From contig KL197727.1 in assembly GCA_000697665.1 (NCBI GenBank), positions 496,001 through 560,000 on the forward strand: DNA of 64,000 bases, read 5' to 3'. The stretch is from Jaapia argillacea MUCL 33604 (Eukaryota; Basidiomycota; Agaricomycetes; Jaapiales; Jaapiaceae). The position numbers and the translations under genes were made by a program. Below are positions 23,226 to 45,163 of this stretch, one piece after another. Position 1 is the first letter of the stretch. The number at the start of each line of letters is the position of its first letter. Below the pieces are notes generated by a model, which did no database searches, had not been told where the DNA came from, and was given only the letters and a program-made list of their open reading frames with translations.

Positions 23226-26054
23226 TGATCCTGGAGGTTGTGGACTAAGACCTGATTCGATTGGTCGGAAATGCGGTCCAAGACGGTTGGAAATTCAATG
23301 GTGTCGCTTTACGAGATGTGAGACCATGCAGCCCAGACGGTATGGTTACGCTACCAGATTATCCGTGCCAGCTCACAATTGGCCGACAGTGACAAGTTTA
23401 GCCTGCGTACTTATATCGACGGTGACGGTCGGAGGAAAGCCTGGGGTTAGCGGGCCAAGCCTCTGGAAGGGTCTAACTTGCGCAAAGATAGCTTCGGATG
23501 ACATAATTTCGTCCACGTGTGCGCATAGCTGTCCGCATTTGGCAAGCCAATATGTCCCGGTGCGACATCAACGTTGCGGAACCTTCAGCGGATTACTGCC
23601 ATTGGGCTCTAAGATTTCGACTAGTTCGCAGCGAAGCTTGCATTTCTCATCCTTGGCCTGGGTTGTTAGGTCACTCGACTCTGAAGCTCAAGATGCCACA
23701 GATGTTGCATTGAGACACCACGACCTATGGGATTCTGGGACTCAGTGCGGCTCGGTCTCTGAATCCTGTGACCGTTCCCCTGGGAGAAGCTCTCGAAACG
23801 CGAAAATGTCTCACCGCGAAGGTGTCTCACTGTGAAGATGAGCCCCACTATGTCCATGATAACGTGGACATTCCTTCAAAAACAGACTCGGCCACCGTCT
23901 TAAGAGACCGAGAGAATGCCACGACCCAAGATCCAAGTTTCCGTTTTTCGGACTCGAGTTCGGGACTTCATCTACTTGGCTCCCTACTTAATCTGTTACC
24001 CCCCCTAATCACAGGGAGTAAAGCCTTTCCTCCCCCAACAAGAACGAGAATTTATTCATGATATTCGCGGATGCGCAACGTATTGGAAGCCCACTACACG
24101 GGATCTCACCGCGTCCCAAACATTTACCACCCGAAACCCTCTCCCCCGTCGCTCATTTTTGTCTTCCAATCAATCCCTGCAATATACGATGCAGACCGCG
24201 GTCTGGATCCAGACGCCTTCACTCACTTCGGAGAGATGTGGAGATTTTCTTTGAGAACCTCTAGCGTGGGGTTGATTAGGGTACCCACAGGGCCTCGATG
24301 ACCCCGGCTCATCTCGCGATTACTTCGTGGGTGACTACCTGGTTTCATAGTCCTGGTACATGTCCAAATGGCAGTCACGATAATGTCGTACCCGAGAAAT
24401 TTAGCGCCCTATTCTAACAACATTCGACGACTTTCCAAGTGGGTTCCTTTAGGCCATTTCTTAATTCTAGAGGTTTGGACATTTACTTTCTACCTCTACG
24501 TGAATCGTACTTGGGAGTCACTCGGACAGTCCCTCCCGACTCGGGAGGTGGCTTTCGGGGTACCCTTGATATCGAAAGGTCCTCAGTGCCATATCGTTGC
24601 TTAACCCCATCTGAACTCCAACTAACGCATTTCGAATCTGGAAGTGTTGCTGGTCCCTTTCCCAAACATTTTTCGCCCCTCCCCGTGCGTGGTTGTGCCA
24701 GTGTTGAGGTGCATATCTCAAACCTTGTTCTCGGACCTTGCAGAGTCGCAGTGAGGAACATTTACAGTAGACGGATAATCCTCGGCCTGAATAAGGACTG
24801 CTTCGACATACCTACTCGTTCGCGTGTAAAGACTGTTCGATGTTCTTCAATGAGCCCCCGATAACCACAGCAAACGCAGATGTTGGCGGGTAACTGGGAT
24901 GGTACACACGGAAGCCACGCAACAGATAAGATTGTTTTGACGATGTTCTTCAATGAGCCCATTATAACCACTGCAAACGAAGATGTTGGTGGGTGACTGG
25001 GATGGTACACACAGAAGCGAGGTAACAGATAAGATAATTGTTTTGAAGTGAGAGTCGGATCTGGAAATAGCTTCAAATCCATGGCGTTCGGGACGATGAG
25101 AAGGAAGAACTGAGATTATCATCCCGGCCTACAATCAATATGCCCTACTTGTGCAAGACTCTCGAGGTTCGCCGCCACGTCACCACATGGAGAACCGAGG
25201 TGGTAGATCGGAGAGGACTGGGAGGGTATGTGTGGGTCCATGTTTAGAAACTCGATATATTCGACAACCACTGCAAACTGGTCATGGACTGATACCTGTT
25301 GAATCAATCAAGTCTGCAGAGTTGAAGAAACGATAACCGTGGAGGTACTCTAAAATTGATCAAGTGGGTGGATGATTATCTTGAGACCTGAGGAATGTGA
25401 CAAGAATATATTGCCTCGCCAGTAGCACCCGCCCATCCGATCTTTATCGAGAATATCGGGCTTCCTGATAAACTGGCCATGACGTTCTCTCTATCGGTTC
25501 CAGTCAGATCCGACCATTCAGAAGAACGTGAAGAGGGGAAACGACACTCACCTTATGTCTTGGTTGACTTTCAACAACCAGCTCTTGTTGTCCAAGTATA
25601 CCGAGGCTCCTACGTTGCCTCGGGGAGAATCAAGACAGCGGTGCAAGCATGTATCCATTTATTCCTGGCTGTGGGCTGACTGTCGAGCAGCACGCGCCAT
25701 TTCGCCATCCGAGAGGCGTGGAGGCAAGCCCGAGTGGTTCCACGAGGTGATTCCGTTGGGGAGCACCGCACAGGTGATAGGATGATTTTGCACACAATCC
25801 ACAGCTTCTCATTGGCTGGCGATGGCTAGGACAAACAAAGGCAAATAGATTACGTACTGGTTTTGAAGGGAATCGGTCCAGCCCGGACCCTTCCCTTGAT
25901 TACTTTCTTGAACGGTGTCTGTGTAGAGCATTGCTCAGCCAAACCACCACCTCGACGCTCTCACTCTTAACCACCACTCTCATCCTCCAACTATACATCC
26001 ATCTCCAGCTCGCCCATCCTACCAGTCGAGCGGTCGCTTTTTTTTGGGCGCAAG
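23226..26054. other. Gene-poor 2.8-kb region
   Basis: Largest gap in the window. Open frames up to about 210 codons occur on both strands, but none has family motifs, splice partners or a consistent exon chain, and codon content looks random. It holds a two-copy tandem repeat (24838-25046) and a 17-bp palindrome, CCTCCCGACTCGGGAGG, at 24532-24548. It could be a decayed gene or transposon, or the upstream region of the copper-fist gene and ISA1. Confidence 0.5.
24838..25046. repeat. Two-copy tandem repeat (about 105 bp units)
   Basis: Unit 1 (24838-24940) and unit 2 (24941-25046) both begin CGATGTTCTTCAATGAGCCC and end AGATAAGAT(AA)TTGTTTTGA. They also share GATGTTGG.GGGT.ACTGGGATGGTACACAC in the middle. 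By eye identity is well above 80 percent, with small indels, and the copies abut exactly. Confidence 0.9.
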
Positions 26055-33408: not shown

Positions 33409-34329
33409 TCACGTGTCATCTGCGGGCGTCGTGTGTAGTGAGTGTCAAGGAGCGATAGCGAGTTAGCAACTGGACAGACTTACCATCATAATGGAAGCGC
33501 GTCTGAAAGACTATTAGACAGGTGCGTAAAGCATGTCAACACGATACTCACCTTCTTGGGGTTGTCTGGAGCGTGTAGTACATATCGATCATTATCCTGC
33601 GGTCTGTAGCAGAGATTGGTTTGGTTTATGATCAACATTGCAGCGACCTCTTGAACATACCTCTCTTTCTTCTGAAAAGCACGACGCCATAGATAGTGAA
33701 CACAAGGCGACCCACAGATGTATGAGCGGAGACCGACCTTACACGACGCCAGCATACTCTGTAGCGTGACACAGATGCCAATGACGCTCAAGACAGGAGA
33801 CCACTCATTCCCCAGGATAGAAGCGCAGATCTGTGAATTGTGGAACACGGCCGGATCAGTGAACAATAATCAGCGCACAAGCAATGTTCCTTACATGGCC
33901 ATTAGAATACACATGCTGAACACGGGAACGCGAGTTATGAGCGCGACACCGCGGCACAAAGAAGGAAACGTACAGGATGAACAGGAGAAGTGTACTTGCC
34001 ATCCACGACAAACTGCACCGCAGGAGATGAGATTGGATAGTTGGGGTCGAACCTAAACTTCAGGGCAAATACTTCTCCCTGGACACAAAGATAAGTCAGC
34101 AACTTGGGAAGATAGTCGTGGAGGTTACGCACTGGATATTGGCTCTCGCCCATTACCTCCAGAGAGAGGAGCCATTGCTCAAAGTTGTCTGCGCTGAGGA
34201 GGTTGATCCCTATTTCCCTGATGAGCGGGCGATGTCATCAAACGAAGCAAAGAGCATACCAACTGGGCACCCCTCGACATGAATCTCCGACAACTCCTTC
34301 CGCAGTCGTCGAGCCGAGATACTAGCCAT
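33409..34329 (-). CDS. Ubiquitin-conjugating enzyme E2, UBE2W-like
   Basis: E2 of the type that attaches ubiquitin to protein N-termini rather than to lysines. The N-terminus is MASISARRLRKELSEIHVEG. Then come FALKFRFDPNYPISSPAVQF, VVDGKYTSPVHP and HVYSNGHICASILGNEWSP with the catalytic Cys in HIC, followed by VLSVIGICVTLQSMLASCK, KERPQDNDRYV and NPKK. The short last exons give TRFHYDDDT. The HICxSIL..WSPxLS.....L..MLxSCK pattern and the C-terminal HxDDT are specific for UBE2W. Classical E2s instead have the HPN tripeptide ahead of the Cys, which is absent here. About 165 residues in at least eight small exons, several under 60 nt. Confidence 0.88.
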
Positions 34330-34976
34330 GAAGAAGAGAAACAAGAGCGCGTACTCAATCAGAGAAGCCGCCACAGGCTAAGCCCACAGCTTTCAGCCAC
34401 TGACAACAAACAAGAGCAAACTTGGCGGGGTGTGCTGAGAGCTCACGCCAAGCTGTATCTTGAATCGAAAATTCCGCAAGCTGATAAAGATTGGGGTTGT
34501 AGCGAGCTCGAGACACTGCTCGTTGTACTTTAGCGTAGGTTAGGCCTTCGAAAATTGTGCTGATTATAATAACTTAGTTACTTACCCTCTGCTCGAAATT
34601 GAAGTTTTGCAATTCGTCACATCGGAGATGGAATCGGGGCTTGAAACTACCTCATATAAGCTGTGTTTTGTAGGAAGCTTTTCCTCAATGTCTACGTCTC
34701 CGCTCTAGAGTCACTTGTACCCTTTGATAACAAGACGGGGACACGCAAGCGCTCGTGGAGACTAAGATTATCTTCTCACTTTGTTCGTCGTCGGCCTGTG
34801 CAGAGCTTTCGACCGCTTGCCGCATGTCAATTTGAGGGACATTCTTTTCGTTGTCGGCCTTCCCCTCCCTTGGTTCTATGGTCTCCAGCTCCTATTGAGC
34901 GACCTCTTGCTCATTGATATCTGTTTTACGAGGCTATATCGGTGCACTGTGTTGGTAATACAAATTTTTCAATAAA
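34330..34976. other. Intergenic gap with possible reverse-transcriptase relic
   Basis: About 650 bp between the E2 start and the Hem3 stop. A short plus-strand frame (34781-34975) reads CRAFDRLPHVNLRDILFVVG, loosely like the LINE reverse-transcriptase block xKAFDxVPHxxLLxxL. It has no continuation on either side. Otherwise nothing recognisable. Confidence 0.3.
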
Positions 34977-36160
34977 TTATGCTGTCGCCTCGCCTGCCCC
35001 AGCGACTTGAACCTTCTCCTTCAATGACTCTTGCACGACTTTGCTCGCTCTGTCCTTCGTGATGTCGTTCAAAATCTGCTTCGCGCCAGTGTCAATGAGA
35101 ATCCTAGCCAACTTCGTACCCAACTCCTCCGCTTGTGCTGTCGATTGTACGTCTCCCTGGATCGTATGTTGCACATGGGAATCCCCTTGGAGCGAAGTGA
35201 CACATCCCGTTATCGTCAATTTGCCCTCTCCCGTTCCACTCACTTCCAACACCGTGTCGACACCGACGGGAACACTGCATCCTCCCTCCAACACTCGAAG
35301 ACAGGCACGCTCGGCCAAACACTTGTACTGGGTTTCCCAATGCGTTAGGGCCTGACAAAGTTCCAGTGCTTTCGCATCGTTCGATCGGATTTCCACTGCA
35401 AGTGCGCCTTGACTGACTGCGTGGAAGAGAGTGGGCGGGTGAAGATCTGCAGTTAAACGGTGACCCAGTCCTAGTCGGACCATCCCTGCCTTGGCGAGTA
35501 TAAGTGCGGAGTAGGGACCATCGGGAGCATCCAGTTTGGCAAGTCGTGTGTTTCTGGGTCCAAATTAGTCGACTTGAGCCAAGTATTTGTAGGAACATAC
35601 ATACAGGTTTCCTCGCTGTCATCGTACGCCCCAACTCCGGTGAACTCGTATCACCACAAACATAATATCGGGAGACTCACCACGTCCAAAAACACCAGCT
35701 TTGGGAAGTTTCTCCTCAACTGAGCAACCCTCCTCACGCTACTAGTCCCCACAACACTTCCCTCGGGCAACTCCTCCAAACTCTTATACCCCAACCCTTC
35801 CTTCACAACCAAACTATCCACCGGGTCTTCCCTCTCCAAAATCGCACCAATCTCACAACCCTCAGGTAAAAGCGTCGGAACGTCTTTGCAACTGTGAACG
35901 AGCATGTCCACAAAATTTTCTTTGAGTACGACTTCTAGTTCTTTCGTCCAGAGTGCTTTGCCTCCTAAGAGATAGAGGGCTTGAGATTGGTTCTTGTCAC
36001 CCTCGGTAGACATGAATGAGGTTTTGAATTCGAGGTCGGGGAAGGCGGCTTGGAGGGCATCGCGGACGATGTTCGTTTGGATCTGCGCAAGTTTGGATGC
36101 TCGAGAGGCGATTGTGAAGGATCGCCTTGGAGTGGGGTTCGAGGGGTTCAATTCCGACAT
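34977..36160 (-). CDS. HEM3: Hydroxymethylbilane synthase (porphobilinogen deaminase)
   Basis: Condenses four porphobilinogen molecules to hydroxymethylbilane, third step of heme synthesis. Three exons. The first begins MSELNPSNPTPRRSFTIASR with the RxSxLA substrate loop (SRASKLAQIQTNIVRDAL). Next are GGKALWTKELE, LVHSCKDVPTLLPEG (the LxxHSxKD catalytic Asp motif) and GTSSVRRVAQLRRNFP. A 3.7-codon mini-exon gives RGNL, joined to NTRLAKLDAPDGPYSALILA. The C-terminal domain has HAVSQGALAVEIR and ACLRVLEGGCSVPVGV, whose Cys carries the dipyrromethane cofactor. Unusual: the loop before GGKALWTKELE is STEGDKNQSQALYLL. The start at 36160 matches the family; the frame is open to 36289. About 350 residues. 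Confidence 0.94.
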
Positions 36161-36504
36161 TGTTGGGTATGAAGTGGATAAATAGTGGTGGGAAGACGAA
36201 GGCTTTAGATATTTCTTCGCAGCTGGAGAGTGGACACGATCGAAATCATAATGTGGGAAATAGTTCTTTATCCGGCAAAGGCCAGACATCTACGCTGATT
36301 CTGTGTATAACGGAACGTTCACAATCAGAATTTTGCTCGTTTCACACTCATGCGCAACGATGAGAGATGTGGAGTATGGTGGGCAAGATACAATACGATG
36401 GGTGAGATGAAAATCTACATTGGCAAGTGCTAAGGAGACATGTACTGGGCCATGCTTTGAGGAACGCATTAGCGTGGGTCGTTCCTCACAAGACACAGGA
36501 TAAC
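36161..36504. other. Gap between HEM3 and NFU1
   Basis: 344 bp between two minus-strand genes; presumably HEM3 promoter and NFU1 3' UTR. No feature resolved. Confidence 0.5.
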
Positions 36505-37503
36505 TCACGACGAGTCCTTGGACGCGAGGTTTTGGTTGAGTCGAGCCTCAAGTTTCTGGAACTCATCCATCGCGATTGTTTCTTCTTGGTCCAATACCTT
36601 CATCATACGGTCAGGATATCAACATTCCAGACGGGTGACTGATAAATGTTTGGACTTACCTGCTCAACGGCCTTGACTTCGGGAATATAATGCATCAGCA
36701 TCCGTTCGATACCTGTCTTCAACGTAACAGTGCTCGAGTCACATCCCCTACAACTTCCCTTCAGTTTCACCTGGACAACACCGTCGTCGGTGAATCCGCG
36801 ATACTCGATATCACCACCGTCCTCCATGATAGCCGGCCTGACACGGGTATCCAACAACTCCTTGATCATAGCTACAGTCTCCGAGTCGGTATCCAGAATT
36901 CTCGTGTCTTGCGGGCCGGCTGCTGCCCTATCCTCCTCGGACCGGAATAGCGGTTGTCCGGACGAGAAATGTTCCATGAGGATGGAGTAGATCTCGGGTT
37001 TGACTACCGACCACGTATTTTCGGAATCTTTGGAGACGGTAACAAAGTCGGGACCGTAGAAGACGGCCTTGACGCCCTCGATTCCCATCAGACGAACAGC
37101 CAGAGGTGACACAAGTGCCGAACGAGTGTCGAGGAATTCTGCTGTTCCATCTTCCATGACGGATACACCTGGGATGAATTTGAGGGAATCGTCATTCGGG
37201 GTGGACTCCGTCTGGATGAACATGGATCGGCCTGTCAGCCGGTTAGTACAGATCGGGTGTACGCATAGGAGTCCACTAACTGAGAGGAGGTGTCTGTCGG
37301 CTTGTACTCGCGAGGCTCCTCACTGCACGCGCCGACGACGACGTTGTGAGTGTGGTTCCGCGATACCATTTTGCTGGCCGAACTGGCGTGGTCGCAATGC
37401 TTCTTGAACATTTTCTGAGGACCGAAGTTGTACGTGTCGATGTCGCAGATGCCTTTTCTATGGCTCGCAGCGAGGCGGAGAGGAGTCTGGTGGTGGAGGA
37501 CAT
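36505..37503 (-). CDS. NFU1: Mitochondrial Fe-S scaffold Nfu1
   Basis: Carrier that delivers 4Fe-4S clusters to lipoyl synthase and respiratory enzymes. Exon 1 starts MSSTTRLLSASLRAIEKASA, an Arg/Ser/Thr-rich mitochondrial presequence of about 75 residues. Exon 2 has the Nfu_N domain: RSMFIQTESTPNDDSLKFIP, GTAEFLDTRSALVSPLAVRL, GVKAVFYGPDFVTVSKD. Then the NifU-type domain: RPAIMEDGGDIEYRGF, VVQVKLKGSCRGCDSSTVTL with the cluster-binding CxxC, and GIERMLMHYIPEVKAVEQV. The last exon is LDQEETIAMDEFQKLEARLN. Three exons, about 290 residues. Its upstream flank carries the truncated duplicate of the ALG1 5' end. Confidence 0.94.
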
Positions 37504-37558
37504 GGTGAAGGATGAACGGAACAGCGATGTGATGAAATTGTCAGCAGAAAGTTAAAAT

Positions 37559-37782
37559 CCGAATATGCGTCAGCTTAGTCATCGATCACTTCGCTTCGTG
37601 TTCTCAGTCCCTTCAGCTTGAACTCGTCGCCTCCGAGTCCGACAGCGAGCACGCATGAACTTGCTCGTATATGGTCCATTATTGCAGCCGCTGGCTACAA
37701 TTGTTTTTGTCTGGTTTACATGGCGGCTACTGAAACGAGACTGGCGGAACCTCTTCCTTCTGTTACAATCCCCGTTCTCAGA
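37559..37782 (+). pseudogene. Truncated duplicate of ALG1 promoter and 5' coding end
   Basis: Matches 39881-40124 base for base with scattered substitutions and indels. Both contain ATATGCGTCAGCTTAGTCATC, GTGTTCTCAGT, GAGCACGCA, ATGAACTTGCT and GTCTGGTTTACATGGCG. The start codon is kept (37655; [20 protein letters not shown], then FTWRLLKRDWRN). Homology stops abruptly after about 42 codons, where the reading frame runs into unrelated DNA that belongs to the FunK1 gene. It cannot make Alg1. Divergence of the order of 20-25 percent by eye says the duplication is not recent. Confidence 0.9.
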
Positions 37783-39813
37783 AGCTCGTCCAACCCCAGA
37801 CGTCCAGGACTCTTCGAGGAGTGGTGGATGTCATGATCATGAAAAAACAAACCAAAAGTTCTTCCCATTTGGTATACTTCAACGGTTGCTGGTTTTTCGC
37901 GAAGGCCGCGACATATTGCTGATACGTTTTATGCATCAACGCCGTGGGTTCCTGAGGGGGGCTGTGGTCACACGTCCCGTCAGGTGGAACGCGCGGCCTG
38001 TGGTCTTGGTCTGCTCCAGACAGATCGACCGTACGCTGGCTGTTGGAGGTGGATGGGGCGGCCAATGTGTTAAGGAGGTCGTTAAGTGCTTCGGATGCCG
38101 AATCGGCTATGTTCAACAATTCGTGAAAAAGACTCCCAAATGGGGCGAAACCCTTTGATGCATGTTTTCTCGGCCCTTTGGAATAATGGTGTGTTATGGT
38201 GGTCTTGTAGGCGACAAGAGCTTCCACATTCTCATTGCATAGATTGTGGATGTACCGACTCTCCTCGTGGGAAGGTTCTAGTTCGTTGATTCTGATGCAC
38301 TCTGCAACAGCCCAGATGAGAACCCAAATGAAGGATTCCAGGGGGTCGATGGCGGTGTGTATGTTGTGGAGGGAGGTAGAACACTGCCCAGCATTCCGCT
38401 GGTTGAGCAATCGGATTGAGGTGAAGGGCAGAGTGCTCTGTGCAGACAAGATAAACCCCAAAAAGATTTTGGCAAGATATTGCAGACTCACCGAGCGGCG
38501 CAGAGCTGCTTTTCGCTTCCAGCAGGTCCAATAAATAGCTTGATCGAAGTCAATGAGCATCCCTTGGCACAAAGTCAGAGTTTTAGTTCCCTCGAAGCTG
38601 AATAAGCACGATGAGTGCAAGCGGCGTCTCATCACAGGGATCACACGCACTCCATTACCGGTCTGCTTTGTTCCTCTGGCATGATCATAACACCGCCAAT
38701 ACTGATGTCGCAATGAAGGAGCCCACCCCGGTATAAGTTCCAATGTCCTACATCAAGATGAGTTGACAAAAGGAACGATAAACAAAGAAGTCGTGTACCA
38801 AGTAATGCGTGGGAGACGGCTGTGTAGAGTTGAGCGGGTCCTACTGAGTCAACAATGTTCATGCCATTTGTTGCTGAGATGTCCTGCACATGATGCGGGG
38901 CAGACTTGAGAGTAGCCGGCGTTGAGGCCTGACTCTGGGCGTATACAGCAGTCCTGCGCCCTCTGATGAATTTCCGCTCGCAAAGAACCCTTCCCACTTC
39001 ATAAGCTCCCCAAGAGTTGGTAACGAAAGAGTCGTCGTATCGTGAGGGATCAAAACTAACCATCCACGGATCGACCACGGATGTCAACCTAACGAAGGCA
39101 TCGACGAGGCCCCTCAGGTCATTGAGGTCGGTTGCGAGGACGGAGAAGGGTTTCGAGGCATTTAGACCAGAGGGATGGTAGAATGCGAATCGGAGAGCGT
39201 TTTCGTCGTGGATATAACAGAGCACGAGCACAACATGTCTCCCCGGGATGGTTGACATGGCACATCGAGCGTAAGTTGCACCCTGAGATACAAGCTTCGA
39301 CCAGTTATTGTTGACCTTAATGGAGATTATAATCTCTCGCCAGAACACCCGCTCCCCCTCTTTGACATCGCGGAGGCAACCAAAACAGCCTGGTTTGGGA
39401 GGGTGCGCACCGTCAACCTGGTCCCCGCACGTGCGATCGTAAGTGTGGAAGCGCAGATCCGCACAGAAGCCCTTCAATCCGGCAGTCCTGCAGGCATGAA
39501 AAATCCTGTCGAGGAGCTCGACCAAGGGTCGATAGAAGTCTCGCTTAGCAGCTGGACCACCATTGCTGCTCTGCGGTAGCGGGATGGTCTCCCAAAAGTC
39601 CCGCAAACAGGTCATTACTGTGTCCAACTCAACTTCGCGAGGTGGCCACAAGTCATCAATGTTGCTCTCACTCTCGAAGAGCCCACTGGCGAGTTCGGCC
39701 GCAAGCCTGAGAATAGTTCCTGTCGCCGTCACTGTCGGCCACTGATGATCGCAATTAGTGGGTGGATGAGAGAGGAGCGGTTCCTCGCCGAATGATAGAA
39801 TTGGGATAGACAA
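37778..39813 (-). CDS. FunK1 fungal-type protein kinase (catalytic Asn missing)
   Basis: Member of the FunK1 kinase-like family that is expanded in mushroom-forming fungi. Exon 1 (38799-39813) carries the N-terminal region (HQWPTVTATGTILRLAAELA, FWREIIISIKVNNNWSKL, RFAFYHPSGLNASKPF). Exon 2 (from 38747) gives GHWNLYRGGLLHCDISIGG, the catalytic loop, with His-Cys-Asp where kinases have His-Arg-Asp. The next exon gives TLTLCQGMLIDFDQA, a DFD-type metal loop, then STLPFTSIRLLN, IDPLESFIWVLIWAVAE (FunK1 hallmark) and the C-terminal lobe. The Asn five residues after the catalytic Asp is Gly here. A splice between DQA and STLPF is likely but not placed. The stop codon lies within the ALG1 duplicate. 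Function of the family is unknown. Confidence 0.85.
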
Positions 39814-39994
39814 AGAGTCGAAGCTGGGATGGCAGAGACAGTAATTACAATCCCAAGTCCCTGTACAAGTTACTTACAGTCCGTATATGCGTCAGCTTAG
39901 TCATCCATCACATCACTCACTGGCACCCGCGACGTGTTCTCAGTTCTGCACCCTTGCTTTGCTTGAGCTCGTCGTCTCCGACAGTGAGCACGCA
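39814..39994. promoter_or_regulatory. Short bidirectional promoter FunK1 / ALG1
   Basis: Only 181 bp separate the divergent starts. The ALG1-proximal 114 bp is the part duplicated next to NFU1, so the original ALG1 promoter is conserved in both places. Confidence 0.5.
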
Positions 39995-42162
39995 ATGAAC
40001 TTGCTGGTATACGGTCCCTTGTTGCAGCTGCTGGCGACAATTGTCTTTGTCTGGTTTACATGGCGACTACTGAAACAAGATCGCCGGAAACCCTCTCTTC
40101 GTTCTGTGGCAATCCTCGTTCTGGGAGACATTGGTCGAAGCCCTAGGATGATGTACCACGCAGAGAGCTTCGCCAAGCTAGAATTCGAGACTTTCTTTAT
40201 TGGATATCGAGGTACGCTCTGTTCGAACCTCAATGTAGAGCAGGAGGCAAATGAAATGGGGATTGCATTACGCTTCCTTCCCTTGACCTTGAACTGGGAA
40301 GAACTCCCTGAAATATTGCCGCTTTCCCTCAGAACGCTTGAATCTAACTTTAATCTTGTCAGGATCCAAGCCGGTCGCATCCCTTCTCTCCCTCCCCCTC
40401 GTCCGCTTCGTCTATCTGTCTGAACCACCCTCCTCACTTTCCAAATTACCCTTCATCCTCTTGGCACCCATCAAAATTCTCCACCAAATTGCCACAATCC
40501 TCGAAGCGCTCTTCTTCCGTGTCCCTCATCCCCCGGAGTTCATCCTTGTACAGGTCAGTCTTAGTTTCGTCCATTCTTGCACACCTGTTGACTCGGTGAA
40601 GAACCCTCCTAGTATCCCTACCCTCGCCCTTGTCTGGCTTGCTGGTAGGCTGAGAGGAAGTAAGGTCATCATCGATTGGCATAATTTGGGATATAGTATC
40701 CTTGCTCTCAAGTTGGGTAACGACCATCCATTTGTCAAGATCGCGAAAAGGTGAGCAGCGAGAGTTCTGGCAGATACAAACTATGGTCGACTCCGTACCC
40801 GTCAGATTTGAAGCTTGGTTTGGTCAGACCGCCTACGCCCATTTATTCGTGACTCAAGCCATGCGAGACCACCTCGTTAGGGAATGGAAACTAATGTGAG
40901 AAATCTTCACTGCAGGACTCCAATGCGAAGCCCCTAATGCTTTACCGTCTCTTGTAGAGGTCACAAAGCAGTTCTCCACGATCGACCCCCAGCCCATTTT
41001 CGCCGAGCATCGCCTCCCGAAACACACGAAGTACGTCGGTATTCCTTCCTTCCCATCCCATCCCACGTTAAAGATTAATCTTTCCACAGCTATTCCAACG
41101 CCTCCGTCCATCCCTCTCAACTCTAACCCGTTTCTTCCCACCGTCATCTCCACCCTATTCCACTCCCTTTACTCATGTCACCACAACCACACCCTCTCCT
41201 ACCGTCACCCCTTCCCCTTCCAACTCAGATCTCAGTATGCCTTCCCTTCGCCCTGAACGTCCTGCTCTCCTTATCTCCAGCACCTCCTGGACTCCAGACG
41301 AAGATTTTAGTATCTTGATTGAAGCCCTTGGAATGTACGATAAACGGGCTAAGGAAATTGACAGGGAGTTGTTGGAAGGCAAAGGAGATGGAAAGCCTCT
41401 CCCGAAGGTTCTCATGGTCGTTACGGGTAAAGGACCCTTGAGGGAAAAGTATATGAAGGAGATACAGAGATTGCAGATTGGGAGGGATGATAGTGGTGAC
41501 GATGGCTGGAAGTGGGTTAGATGTGTTAGTCTCTGGCTGGAGGCCGAGGACTATCCAGTTCTGCTGGGTATGTTTCTTTCACCCACTCTATTTTATTATA
41601 ATTCCGTTCTGTGACTGACGGTGACTCTCGATAGGTTCAGCCGATTTGGGTATCTCACTCCACTCTAGTTCGTCGGCGCTTGACCTTCCGATGAAGATCG
41701 TTGATATGTTCGGATGTGGGTTACCTGTCTGTGCGTTGGATTTTGCTTGGTACGCCTTTCAACACTCCTAGTGAGTTCAATAATGATGACGACGTCTGGT
41801 TTCCTTTGTGTCTAGTCTCCATGAACTGGTAAAAGACGGGACGAACGGTCTCGTATTCAAAAATGCGGAACAACTTGCCGCTCAGATCGAGGTTTGCTCC
41901 CCTTCACTTGAGATTTGACCGTTTTCCGTTAAATAGAACCATTTAGGGCCTCTTGGCTTCATTCCCAAAGTCACCATCTCTATCCGCTCTCCACTCATCC
42001 CTGCTAAAATCTTCGAAACCGCCGGAAGGTGCTGCAACACAACATCTCCGTCATCATGGAGGTTTGATTGGAGAGGAAGGGGATCACTGGGAGTGGAATA
42101 CTTGGGATGAGAATTGGGGGAGGGTTGTCAAGCCGTTGATCTTGAGAGATGCGATGCGGTGA
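39995..42162 (+). CDS. ALG1: Beta-1,4-mannosyltransferase Alg1
   Basis: Adds the first mannose, from GDP-mannose, to GlcNAc2-PP-dolichol on the cytosolic face of the ER (GT33 family). It starts with a membrane anchor: [20 protein letters not shown]. Then come [20 protein letters not shown], the donor-site glycine loop region, [132 protein letters not shown] and [15 protein letters not shown]. Intron 1 (40212-40362) is 151 nt, three times the local norm. Other introns are near 40553, 40751, 40900, 41025, 41570, 41750 and 41890. About 500 residues, complete. A truncated duplicate of its 5' end lies at 37559-37782. Confidence 0.95.
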
Positions 42163-42736
42163 TCGTCCGTACATGTGGAGTGGATTCATTTGTTTGTTTG
42201 GGCCTTGTTTGCCATTAGCCTCTCCAGGTCTTGGCATTAACGCACTGAGGGAATGCCAGCGTCGAGTAGACCTCATTAAATCGGGTCATGTCCGTTGGTC
42301 GGCGTAGGATGACTCCACTTTGGAGCAGATTCTGCAGAAATTGAGCGAGTAAGCGGGTTAATGGAATGGTTGGTGTAGGTTTAGTCGAACCCCGCTTTCG
42401 TCCCATCAGATTCTCCGAGTCGAGGGCGATGCTGTGTTGGTTTTACTAGTCACTGTATTTACCGATATTCAGACGAACACACTCTCCAGTAACGCTCAAA
42501 CTCCGGAGATCGTAATTCAACAGATGGCACTACACACACAAATACACACGAGTACATTGCAGAGACAGCGGCTGAATATCATTTGGTCGTACATCCGATT
42601 CGAGAAAGCAAAACAACAGACTGGAGAGTTACCAGGCCGAGTTCCACACCAGGTCTGTAGCGCTCAATATTAGAAGCGAGACGGCAAGCGAAGGAAGGGA
42701 ACGTTACGAACCTTTTCAACTTTCTCAACTCCGTCA
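42163..42736. other. Convergent intergenic gap
   Basis: 574 bp between the ALG1 and repeat-protein 3' ends. No coding or RNA feature convinces. Confidence 0.5.
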
Positions 42737-43588
42737 TCAATTGAAGCGAGTTGAATCCGCGGTGAATCCAATGGTCCAAATGGTGATAGTTGCGGGATCG
42801 GCCTGTTCGTGATCCTTCGCAGCTGCAACCCAAGACTGGCGGTCCTGAGGGAAGCAAGCGGTGAGAAGGCTTCCAAAGCCGTTCCAATGGACGAGTGCCC
42901 CTCCTCCGGTAATATGGAAGTCGGGAACGACGAAAGTGAGCTTGGGATGATTAGCTGGGGCGGGAGACAGGTCCTGGCGAGTGAAGAAATTGACGGTCAT
43001 CGAAGCGTCGCTGAGGAACGACTTCTTCAAACCGATAGCCCATACCGTGATGGTGGATGGGTCGGGGTGTGCGTGATCCTTGGAGGCGCCGACCCAGCCT
43101 TTGCCATCGGGAGTTGGGTAACTCCCATAGAGCAAATTACCATCCCCAGTCCAATTAGCTTTCGCTCCACCTCCAACAACCACAAAACCGTCGGGGAGCG
43201 TCGCGGTCGCGGTGGGATGCTGGGCTTTTGCGCTGGTGACCGAAACGACTTTGTAGTAGTCAGCGGGGATGGGCAAACCGTCCCTCAAGGTGGCGACGAC
43301 GATGTAGGCGGAGATGCTGGCGGGGCTGGGAACGTCGTGATCTTTGGAAGCCACGGTCCAAGATGTTCCTTGGTCGTTCGGGTACATCGCGGTGAGCAGG
43401 TTGCCGGCGGGGTTAATGGAGGCGCATGGGCCAGTCCAGTCGACATACGCTCCTCCTCCCAGGATCACAGATCCCGCAGGCGCATTTACCGTAGCGGTCG
43501 GGTGTTGAGCGCACGATGAAGTGACCTTGAGGAGTTGGAAGTGCAAAGCTCCAAACTTGTAGCTGTCGACTACGGTGGGGGTCGTCAT
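42737..43588 (-). CDS. Intronless protein of three internal repeats, family unknown
   Basis: 283 residues in one exon, in contrast to its intron-rich neighbours. Three repeats of about 85-95 residues share a pattern: AQHPTATxxxPxGxVxxGGGA, then WTG..GNLL, a Y/F-P strand, then W-VxASKDHxxPxPxxIxxxxxG. Repeat 1: SVILGGGAYVDWTG and SWTVASKDHDVPSPASISAY. Repeat 2: FVVVGGGAKANWTGDGNLLY and GWVGASKDHAHPDPSTITVW. Repeat 3: FHITGGGALVHWNGFGSLLT and SWVAAAKDHEQADPATITIW. No signal peptide or membrane helix is visible, so it is probably cytosolic. The symmetry suggests a beta-propeller, beta-trefoil or lectin-like fold with three equivalent sites. That is inference from repeat number; I cannot name a family or function. 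Confidence 0.85.
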   Translation of the reverse strand: MTTPTVVDSYKFGALHFQLLKVTSSCAQHPTATVNAPAGSVILGGGAYVDWTGPCASINPAGNLLTAMYPNDQGTSWTVASKDHDVPSPASISAYIVVATLRDGLPIPADYYKVVSVTSAKAQHPTATATLPDGFVVVGGGAKANWTGDGNLLYGSYPTPDGKGWVGASKDHAHPDPSTITVWAIGLKKSFLSDASMTVNFFTRQDLSPAPANHPKLTFVVPDFHITGGGALVHWNGFGSLLTACFPQDRQSWVAAAKDHEQADPATITIWTIGFTADSTRFN

Positions 43589-45163
43589 GATGATAAAGAA
43601 ATTCTAATATGAATCATAATGTTTTCGTTAGCGTTCGAATAGCATCAGAGAGACAATAAATGTAGAAACCTTGGAAGGGCTGAGCGTTGTTCAACTGGGT
43701 GGAGGAACGATTGCGGTGATTGATACCAGTGAATCCACTCACCTTTTATACATCCTGGGGTGGGTTTAATGAGGGGAACTGTATGGTTCAGGTAGGCAAT
43801 GGGTCGAAGACCGTTCTCTTCACCTTGTCACCAGTCAGGTCACCTGCGCGAGATACAATGATTCAAGGCACCAGAGGCACCCTCGATCGTGTCTGTCCGT
43901 CTAGCTCAAATGGGCGGGCACCAATGCGATGCGTGATTCAGTAGGTTCCGATAACCCCGGACAGGATTAATAACTGCTACCGTCTCCAGAGGACGTTCGC
44001 CAAGCCTTCATCCCCTCGGCGTTGGCTTAACCCCGGGTTCTTGCCTTTCACATGAACCGAATCGGACCCGCTTTACGACCCCCCTTATTCCTCTCGAGCT
44101 GGCCAAGGCGATAATCTTCACCACGCTATGGACGAATACGTCACAATTATCGTTTTTTACCCTCATTGCATCGGCGTCACAGTATCACCGACGGTGCTGC
44201 GTTAATCCATTCACTTCTCATACGTATAACCCCTCGAACAGGTGCCAGGGCTATCATCGCCTATCACCAACTTCCTAAGGTGTCATCCATCTCGGGAACT
44301 GGTGAAAGTAACCCTAACCCAACCCGGCGGTGCAACGGCACGAACCATACAACGCAATTCGTGTGTATGTGCTTGAAGTCCTCCAACTCGCATTCTAATG
44401 CGGATGGGGCGGTTGAGTTTGTGCACAGGGAAGGGGGAAGCGATGAGGCAGCCGAAGCGTTCGTGTAGAGGTATGCGTAGAGTGGAAGAATTGGGGGGAT
44501 GGTGATGCTACGAGCACCGTCACGCTGTCCCTGCAGTTCTTCGGTCTCTCTATCTACGTCACTAATATCCGGGGAAGCTGGAGTAGTGAGGGGAGACGTG
44601 CACCTGGCTCCGTGGCTTGGCAGGAGCAGATGGTAAAAATGCGAGTAAGAGATCGCGACGATAACTTGTCGATGAGAACGGATAGCTCCATTTAGAGGGA
44701 GGTGTGAATGAGCTGCCAAGACCCGTATCATCATCTAGAACGAAAACTGAAAAGAGAAAGTTTAGAATCGAAACGTGAAAAAAGTCAGAGAAGGAAAGAT
44801 TTACTTTGACCGCCTTCCAATAAACCGTTACGGGGTATCTCCCAACTCTTCGTCCATCGCTTCAACTTCAAGGACATCCTTGCACTACTTCCCTGAACGC
44901 CGGTTTCGCCAAAACCCTCATTCATTTTCGTCTCTCTTCCCCAACACTCGCGTTAGCCATCTCCACATCTACTGTTTATTGATTCAATGAAGCATCATAA
45001 ATATCATCGAGTTACGCGTCGTTTCGATATAAAAGCACACGAACGCATTCCCCTTGACTTCCAATCCGAATCGACCCCTGGATGCCGAACGCCGATGAAT
45101 CCAAAAAGCAGTGTCACGCGCTCCACCACATCACCTCTCCACTCTCCTCAATCACACCATCCC
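43589..45163. other. 1.6-kb intergenic region
   Basis: Between the start of the three-repeat gene and the stop of SMP3. A minus-strand frame of 156 codons (44264-44734) has no motif and is probably chance. The likely promoter of the repeat gene is within the first few hundred bases. Confidence 0.5.

Follow-up and report, generated by a model that had tools for sequence, protein, structure and literature searches.

FunK1 kinases carry a serine in the active-site loop at the position where ordinary kinases have a lysine, and the FunK1 genes of Paracoccidioides are described as a lineage-specific expansion enriched in non-syntenic regions (PMC3203195). In grasses, the insertion of genes through double-strand-break repair, with filler DNA and duplications at the borders, is reported in PMC3445842 and PMC3503983, citing Wicker et al. 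2010, and for the Ghd7 ortholog the target duplication is given as 10 bp (PMC3503983). At Drosophila inversion breakpoints, duplications are attributed to staggered breaks (PMC5080602). Our literature search found no description of a FunK1 gene flanked by such repeats.

The window analysed here is a 64-kb stretch of fungal DNA in which a FunK1 gene lies between NFU1 and ALG1, bracketed by two diverged copies of the ALG1 promoter and about the first 42 ALG1 codons. The original prediction had claimed this arrangement and had set the copies at 37559-37782 and 39881-40124; the copies are there, with actual limits a few bases wider. The features of the locus are listed below.

36603..37503, minus strand: NFU1 (iron-sulphur scaffold), single, start codon at 37503 (Nfu_N E 6e-30, NifU E 4e-28)
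37552..37797, plus strand: left copy of the ALG1 promoter and about 42 codons, start codon at 37655 (alignment, genome search)
37563..37581, minus strand: 19-base core identical in both promoter copies, left (genome search)
37778..39904, minus strand: FunK1 gene, stop at 37778 in the left copy, start at 39904 (right copy) or 39615 (model proposed from sequence)
37834..38006, minus strand: FunK1 3' end, matched at 80% DNA identity by a relic on contig C14 (genome search)
38798-38748 (51 nt), 38650-38598 (53 nt) and 38491-38438 (54 nt), minus strand: FunK1 introns, splice sites proposed from sequence
39874..40143, plus strand: right copy, promoter and first codons, continuous with full ALG1, start at 39995 (alignment)
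39885..39903, minus strand: 19-base core identical in both promoter copies, right (genome search)
39995..42162, plus strand: ALG1-like glycosyltransferase gene, several introns, exon limits approximate (Glyco_trans_4_4 E 4.8e-8)

Local alignment of 37552-37797 to 39874-40143 produced 276 columns, 205 of them identical and 36 of them gap columns, with a score of 272 as against a maximum of 44 among 292 random window segments of 270 bases each. By the divergence check that had been proposed for the two copies, the 240 ungapped positions contain 35 substitutions, 17 of them transitions and 18 transversions (K2P 0.163), and it is because of these that the event looks old. A search of the genome's own 43.7-Mb assembly, which passes over simple repeats and very common words, matched the left copy to itself and to the right copy only, with no third copy. 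Only the right copy continues into a full ALG1, as had been predicted; in the alignment, a 4-nt gap puts the left copy out of frame with ALG1 past about codon 31, and the left copy is therefore read as a decayed 5' fragment. The left copy begins about 48 bp before the NFU1 start codon and the right copy begins at the FunK1 5' end, the duplicated piece spans most of the short stretch from NFU1 to ALG1, and FunK1 is oriented toward the right copy in the same way as NFU1 is toward the left. Self-comparison of the window (E 1e-4) yielded just one more direct repeat, at 24838-25046, where some 103 bp are duplicated in adjacent tandem with 87% identity. The frame of the ALG1 stub (37622-38158, plus strand) stays open for 178 codons and runs antisense through the 3' part of FunK1, which is probably due to chance.

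Within the first 28 codons the copies show nine differences, seven of them synonymous (dS 0.44, dN 0.03). Under a model of one dead copy and one constrained copy, at least seven synonymous differences out of nine have a P of 0.026-0.072, varying with the transition bias. When the first 31 codons are taken, there are 12 differences, counted as 8.5 synonymous and 3.5 nonsynonymous, for which the corresponding P is 0.06-0.16 for eight of 12 and 0.016-0.056 for nine of 12. This pattern hints that both copies were coding during part of their separate history. In the promoter part, a 19-base core is identical in both copies, and a genome search allowing up to two mismatches found it at these two places alone, whereas several gaps fall between the core and the start codon. 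An unchanged core next to such gaps fits both copies having been kept as promoters. By its place and conservation the core is a candidate promoter element, which might be needed by NFU1 on the left and by ALG1, and perhaps FunK1, on the right.

The one recognisable gene in the interval is FunK1, on the minus strand, in agreement with the original prediction. With the proposed introns it is open through about 2.1 kb, and its spliced product matches PF17667 at E 1.2e-20 with 74 bits (curated cut-off 24.1), which places it in the family; the match spans profile positions 272-386 of 387, the C-terminal part, with the N-terminal part of the profile unmatched. A retrocopy origin is disfavoured, since the proposed introns keep the frame open. 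As modelled, the FunK1 frame enters the left copy before it stops. At the other end, a scan of 39657-40000 found three minus-strand ATGs (39904, 39908 and 39913), every one inside the right copy, and none in 39657-39903; from 39904, five splice models with a further intron join the FunK1 frame, and an in-frame Met at 39615 offers an alternative start. Because all three ATGs lie in the right copy, FunK1 may start within the duplicated promoter. No foreign composition of the insert was seen in GC or GC3 against its neighbours: the insert has a GC of 0.519 as compared to 0.494-0.529 in four neighbouring stretches, and FunK1 has a GC3 of 0.59 as compared to 0.61 in an NFU1 exon and 0.51-0.53 in two ALG1 pieces.

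The catalytic loop of the FunK1 product reads HCDISIGG, and its HCDIS thus carries a serine in the active-site loop, as is characteristic of the family. We take this serine to be the family's active-site serine by setting HCDIS against the HRDLK motif of ordinary kinases. The catalytic-loop Asn seven residues past the His is a mark of kinase activity and not of family membership. This position is Gly in the window FunK1 and Asn in all nine other loops, which a motif search blind to intron-broken or more diverged loops retrieved from seven of 23 other FunK1 stretches. The search motif required His/Tyr, Asp, Ser and hydrophobic residues at some positions, with no constraint on the positions being compared; where the window gene has Cys, five of the nine loops have Arg and four have Gly. 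Since the Asn is replaced by Gly, the window FunK1, while an open gene, may be an inactive kinase or pseudokinase.

At the DNA level, the genome search gave the insert a sole match outside the window, a 172-bp relic of its 3' end at C14 449716-449887, and no further intact copy. A protein search of the genome (E 0.1) likewise retrieved the window FunK1 and the C14 relic alone, and neither DNA nor protein searches of the genome found an intact donor gene. When searched against the 23 fetched FunK1 stretches at E 0.01, the window protein matched eight, and matches longer than 100 residues share 24-30% of their amino acids. The relic belongs to the same FunK1 subfamily and is the nearest relative found. 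Two stop codons fall within the match, of which one may mark the natural end of the gene, and in the 16.9 kb examined beside it only chance-level matches to further FunK1 parts were seen. The homology begins at 37815-37834, that is, 17-36 bp beyond the end of the left copy. FunK1 and the relic differ with a K2P of 0.235 over 158 sites, which is of the same order as the divergence of the window repeat, so that one copying event could have made both; we offer this as a weak suggestion. The relic lies among clustered, repeated genes of great length. A 3.2-kb direct pair (75%) flanks it, at 5.5 kb on one side and 4.8 kb on the other, and a 1.7-kb tandem pair (91%) is also nearby. We provisionally do not read the 3.2-kb pair as a flank duplication, because the long open frames around the relic resemble members of a single family of very large proteins.

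It should be noted that the name ALG1 is itself provisional, and draws on sequence motifs and on the label given in the original prediction. The Glyco_trans_4_4 match (GT4-like, Pfam) came from a hand-stitched product, which retrieved no match in NCBIfam or among PDB sequences, and the ALG1 pieces searched singly against Pfam gave none. A wider segmental repeat extending through NFU1, which the original prediction had regarded as fatal to an insertion, was not what we found. Neither the ALG1 body (40144-42160) nor the HMBS/NFU1 stretch (35600-37551) had any match in the genome search other than itself, and a wider segmental duplication is rejected on these grounds.

The genome holds at least 66 PF17667 pieces, which were grouped into 26 places: the window, 23 further stretches, C11 and C13. 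The 23 stretches were compared to the window, with C11, C13 and the C14 relic standing outside this comparison. The original prediction had suggested looking for the same flank arrangement around other FunK1 copies; in none of the 23 stretches is the gene flanked by directly repeated non-FunK1 sequence, within sequence that in many stretches reaches only about 1.5 kb past the Pfam match and not the whole gene, so that flank repeats lying farther out, or of great age, may have escaped notice. Tandem FunK1 copies are present in four stretches (C4 1096-1105 kb, C42 126-132 kb, C7 439-444 kb and C7 908-914 kb), small local tandem repeats in two (C7 632.6-633.3 kb and C7 1054.6-1054.8 kb), and the remaining 17 have no direct repeat of at least 40 bases at E 1e-3. 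Among the stretches examined, then, the visible mode of FunK1 growth is tandem duplication, and the window case stands alone there. In the C4 array (1096315-1104876, about 73-79% DNA identity) a repeat pair at 1102354-1102696 and 1104477-1104807 (67%) lies beside a FunK1 unit, and we counted it as part of the array because its right half falls inside a tandem unit. The repeat at C7 632597-633321 is a minisatellite with a unit of about 60 bp, situated about 0.7 kb from a FunK1 fragment. Separately, a 5.8S rRNA family search of the assembly gave no match, with 39 of 1321 candidates scored, and the rDNA is either lacking from the assembly or was missed.

From the structure of the locus we infer the order of events and a mechanism. 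The reading that we favour, and which we consider likely without being strongly committed to it, is an old duplicative insertion, a one-off event of break repair from which each neighbour came away with its own copy of the promoter. Before the event, NFU1 (minus strand) and ALG1 (plus strand) would probably have had one common divergent promoter of about 150-170 bp. A widely offset break in this shared promoter would have been mended with a DNA piece holding one FunK1 gene; alternatively, a repair fork could have switched template, copied FunK1 and returned upstream of its point of departure. Filling-in or re-copying would then have doubled the promoter and the first 42 or so ALG1 codons, one copy per side. 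The left promoter copy would have stayed with NFU1, together with the dead ALG1 5' stub, and the right copy with ALG1, and FunK1 may use the NFU1-side activity of the right copy and perhaps its start codon too.

The locus is fitted most simply by such a bounded insertion, with its long flanking duplication, because the repeat stops about 48 bp short of the NFU1 start, because NFU1 and HMBS are single, and also because FunK1-related sequence starts so close to the left copy; this part of the predicted insertion stood, while a recurring single-gene mobile unit found no support in the 23 stretches. As in insertion by break repair, direct copies of the target bound foreign DNA and the neighbours are single. 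Against it speak the synonymous excess, which hints at divergence while both copies coded, the flanking duplication of about 250 bp, which seems long for a simple staggered break, and the lack of an intact donor gene in the genome searches. The foremost rival, which we hold to be unlikely, is that FunK1 already stood between NFU1 and ALG1 and that the NFU1 side later received a 246-bp copy from the ALG1 5' region by short dispersed duplication. This would yield the same final structure, and the left copy is indeed merely a fragment into which the FunK1 frame runs; however, the copied piece would have to be a promoter in the right orientation by chance, and the upstream region belonging to NFU1 itself would have measured no more than about 65-85 bp, up to the 3' end of FunK1, which is why we rank this course below an insertion.

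The synonymous excess would be explained by another possibility, to which we assign a small likelihood, namely that the copies come from two diverged haplotypes or species, one haplotype with FunK1, and were recombined or else falsely joined in assembly. Seven of nine (28 codons) and 8.5 of 12 (31 codons) synonymous differences are as would be seen between two working alleles, but the left copy has a frame-breaking gap, the window is without any N, and no second ALG1 body or NFU1 was found in the assembly, their singleness also speaking against a second allele left there. Rather doubtful, in our estimation, is a bolder proposal by which FunK1 spread through capturing a duplicated housekeeping divergent promoter, and with it a start codon, the insertion being harmless as each neighbour would have a promoter copy; the copies would maybe stem from diverged haplotypes, and the insert could possibly have been introgressed, its own ALG1 5' end arriving with it. 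A comparable case is that of certain homing genes, which bring along a substitute for the end of the gene they interrupt. That the ALG1 5' region was tandemly duplicated first and FunK1 inserted later exactly at the join seems improbable: tandem duplication does occur among the FunK1 genes of this genome (four of 23 stretches), yet two events would be required, with the insertion striking the join. Most improbable of all is a FunK1 mobile unit that consists of one gene and generates long target duplications. The bounds at the window locus are sharp, and the family is described as expanded and enriched in non-syntenic regions elsewhere (PMC3203195), but the boundaries or the flank duplication of a mobile unit should recur at other places, and 0 of 23 other stretches have such flanks within the sequence examined; instead of a second intact insert the genome search found one 172-bp relic only, and among the three inverted-repeat pairs listed for 34000-44000, none pairs the insert ends.

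An insertion during break repair would make the window locus a clear single case of a dispersed FunK1 gene settling between its neighbours in a compact fungal genome while leaving them unbroken, with the promoter they shared seemingly doubled in the process. Should the empty site be seen in relatives, this would be one documented route of FunK1 dispersal besides tandem duplication. As a PF17667 member, the window gene resembles the FunK1 family in its lineage-specific copies; whereas some other FunK1 copies in this genome form tandem arrays, it is isolated, diverged and without the catalytic-loop Asn. The locus is like the Drosophila inversions as described, in that offset breaks and their repair leave a stretch duplicated on both sides, although the Drosophila copies are inverted and flank an inversion while those in the window are direct and flank an inserted gene. 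It is likewise similar to the reported break-repair insertions of grasses, in which repair puts a gene at a new site with a duplication at the border. Unlike the 10 bp given for the Ghd7 ortholog, the duplication in the window measures about 250 bp and covers a promoter, and no intact donor was found. Nevertheless, judging from these parallels, the window case is probably a member of the known break-repair kind of insertion, with a duplicated stretch that is long and probably functional.
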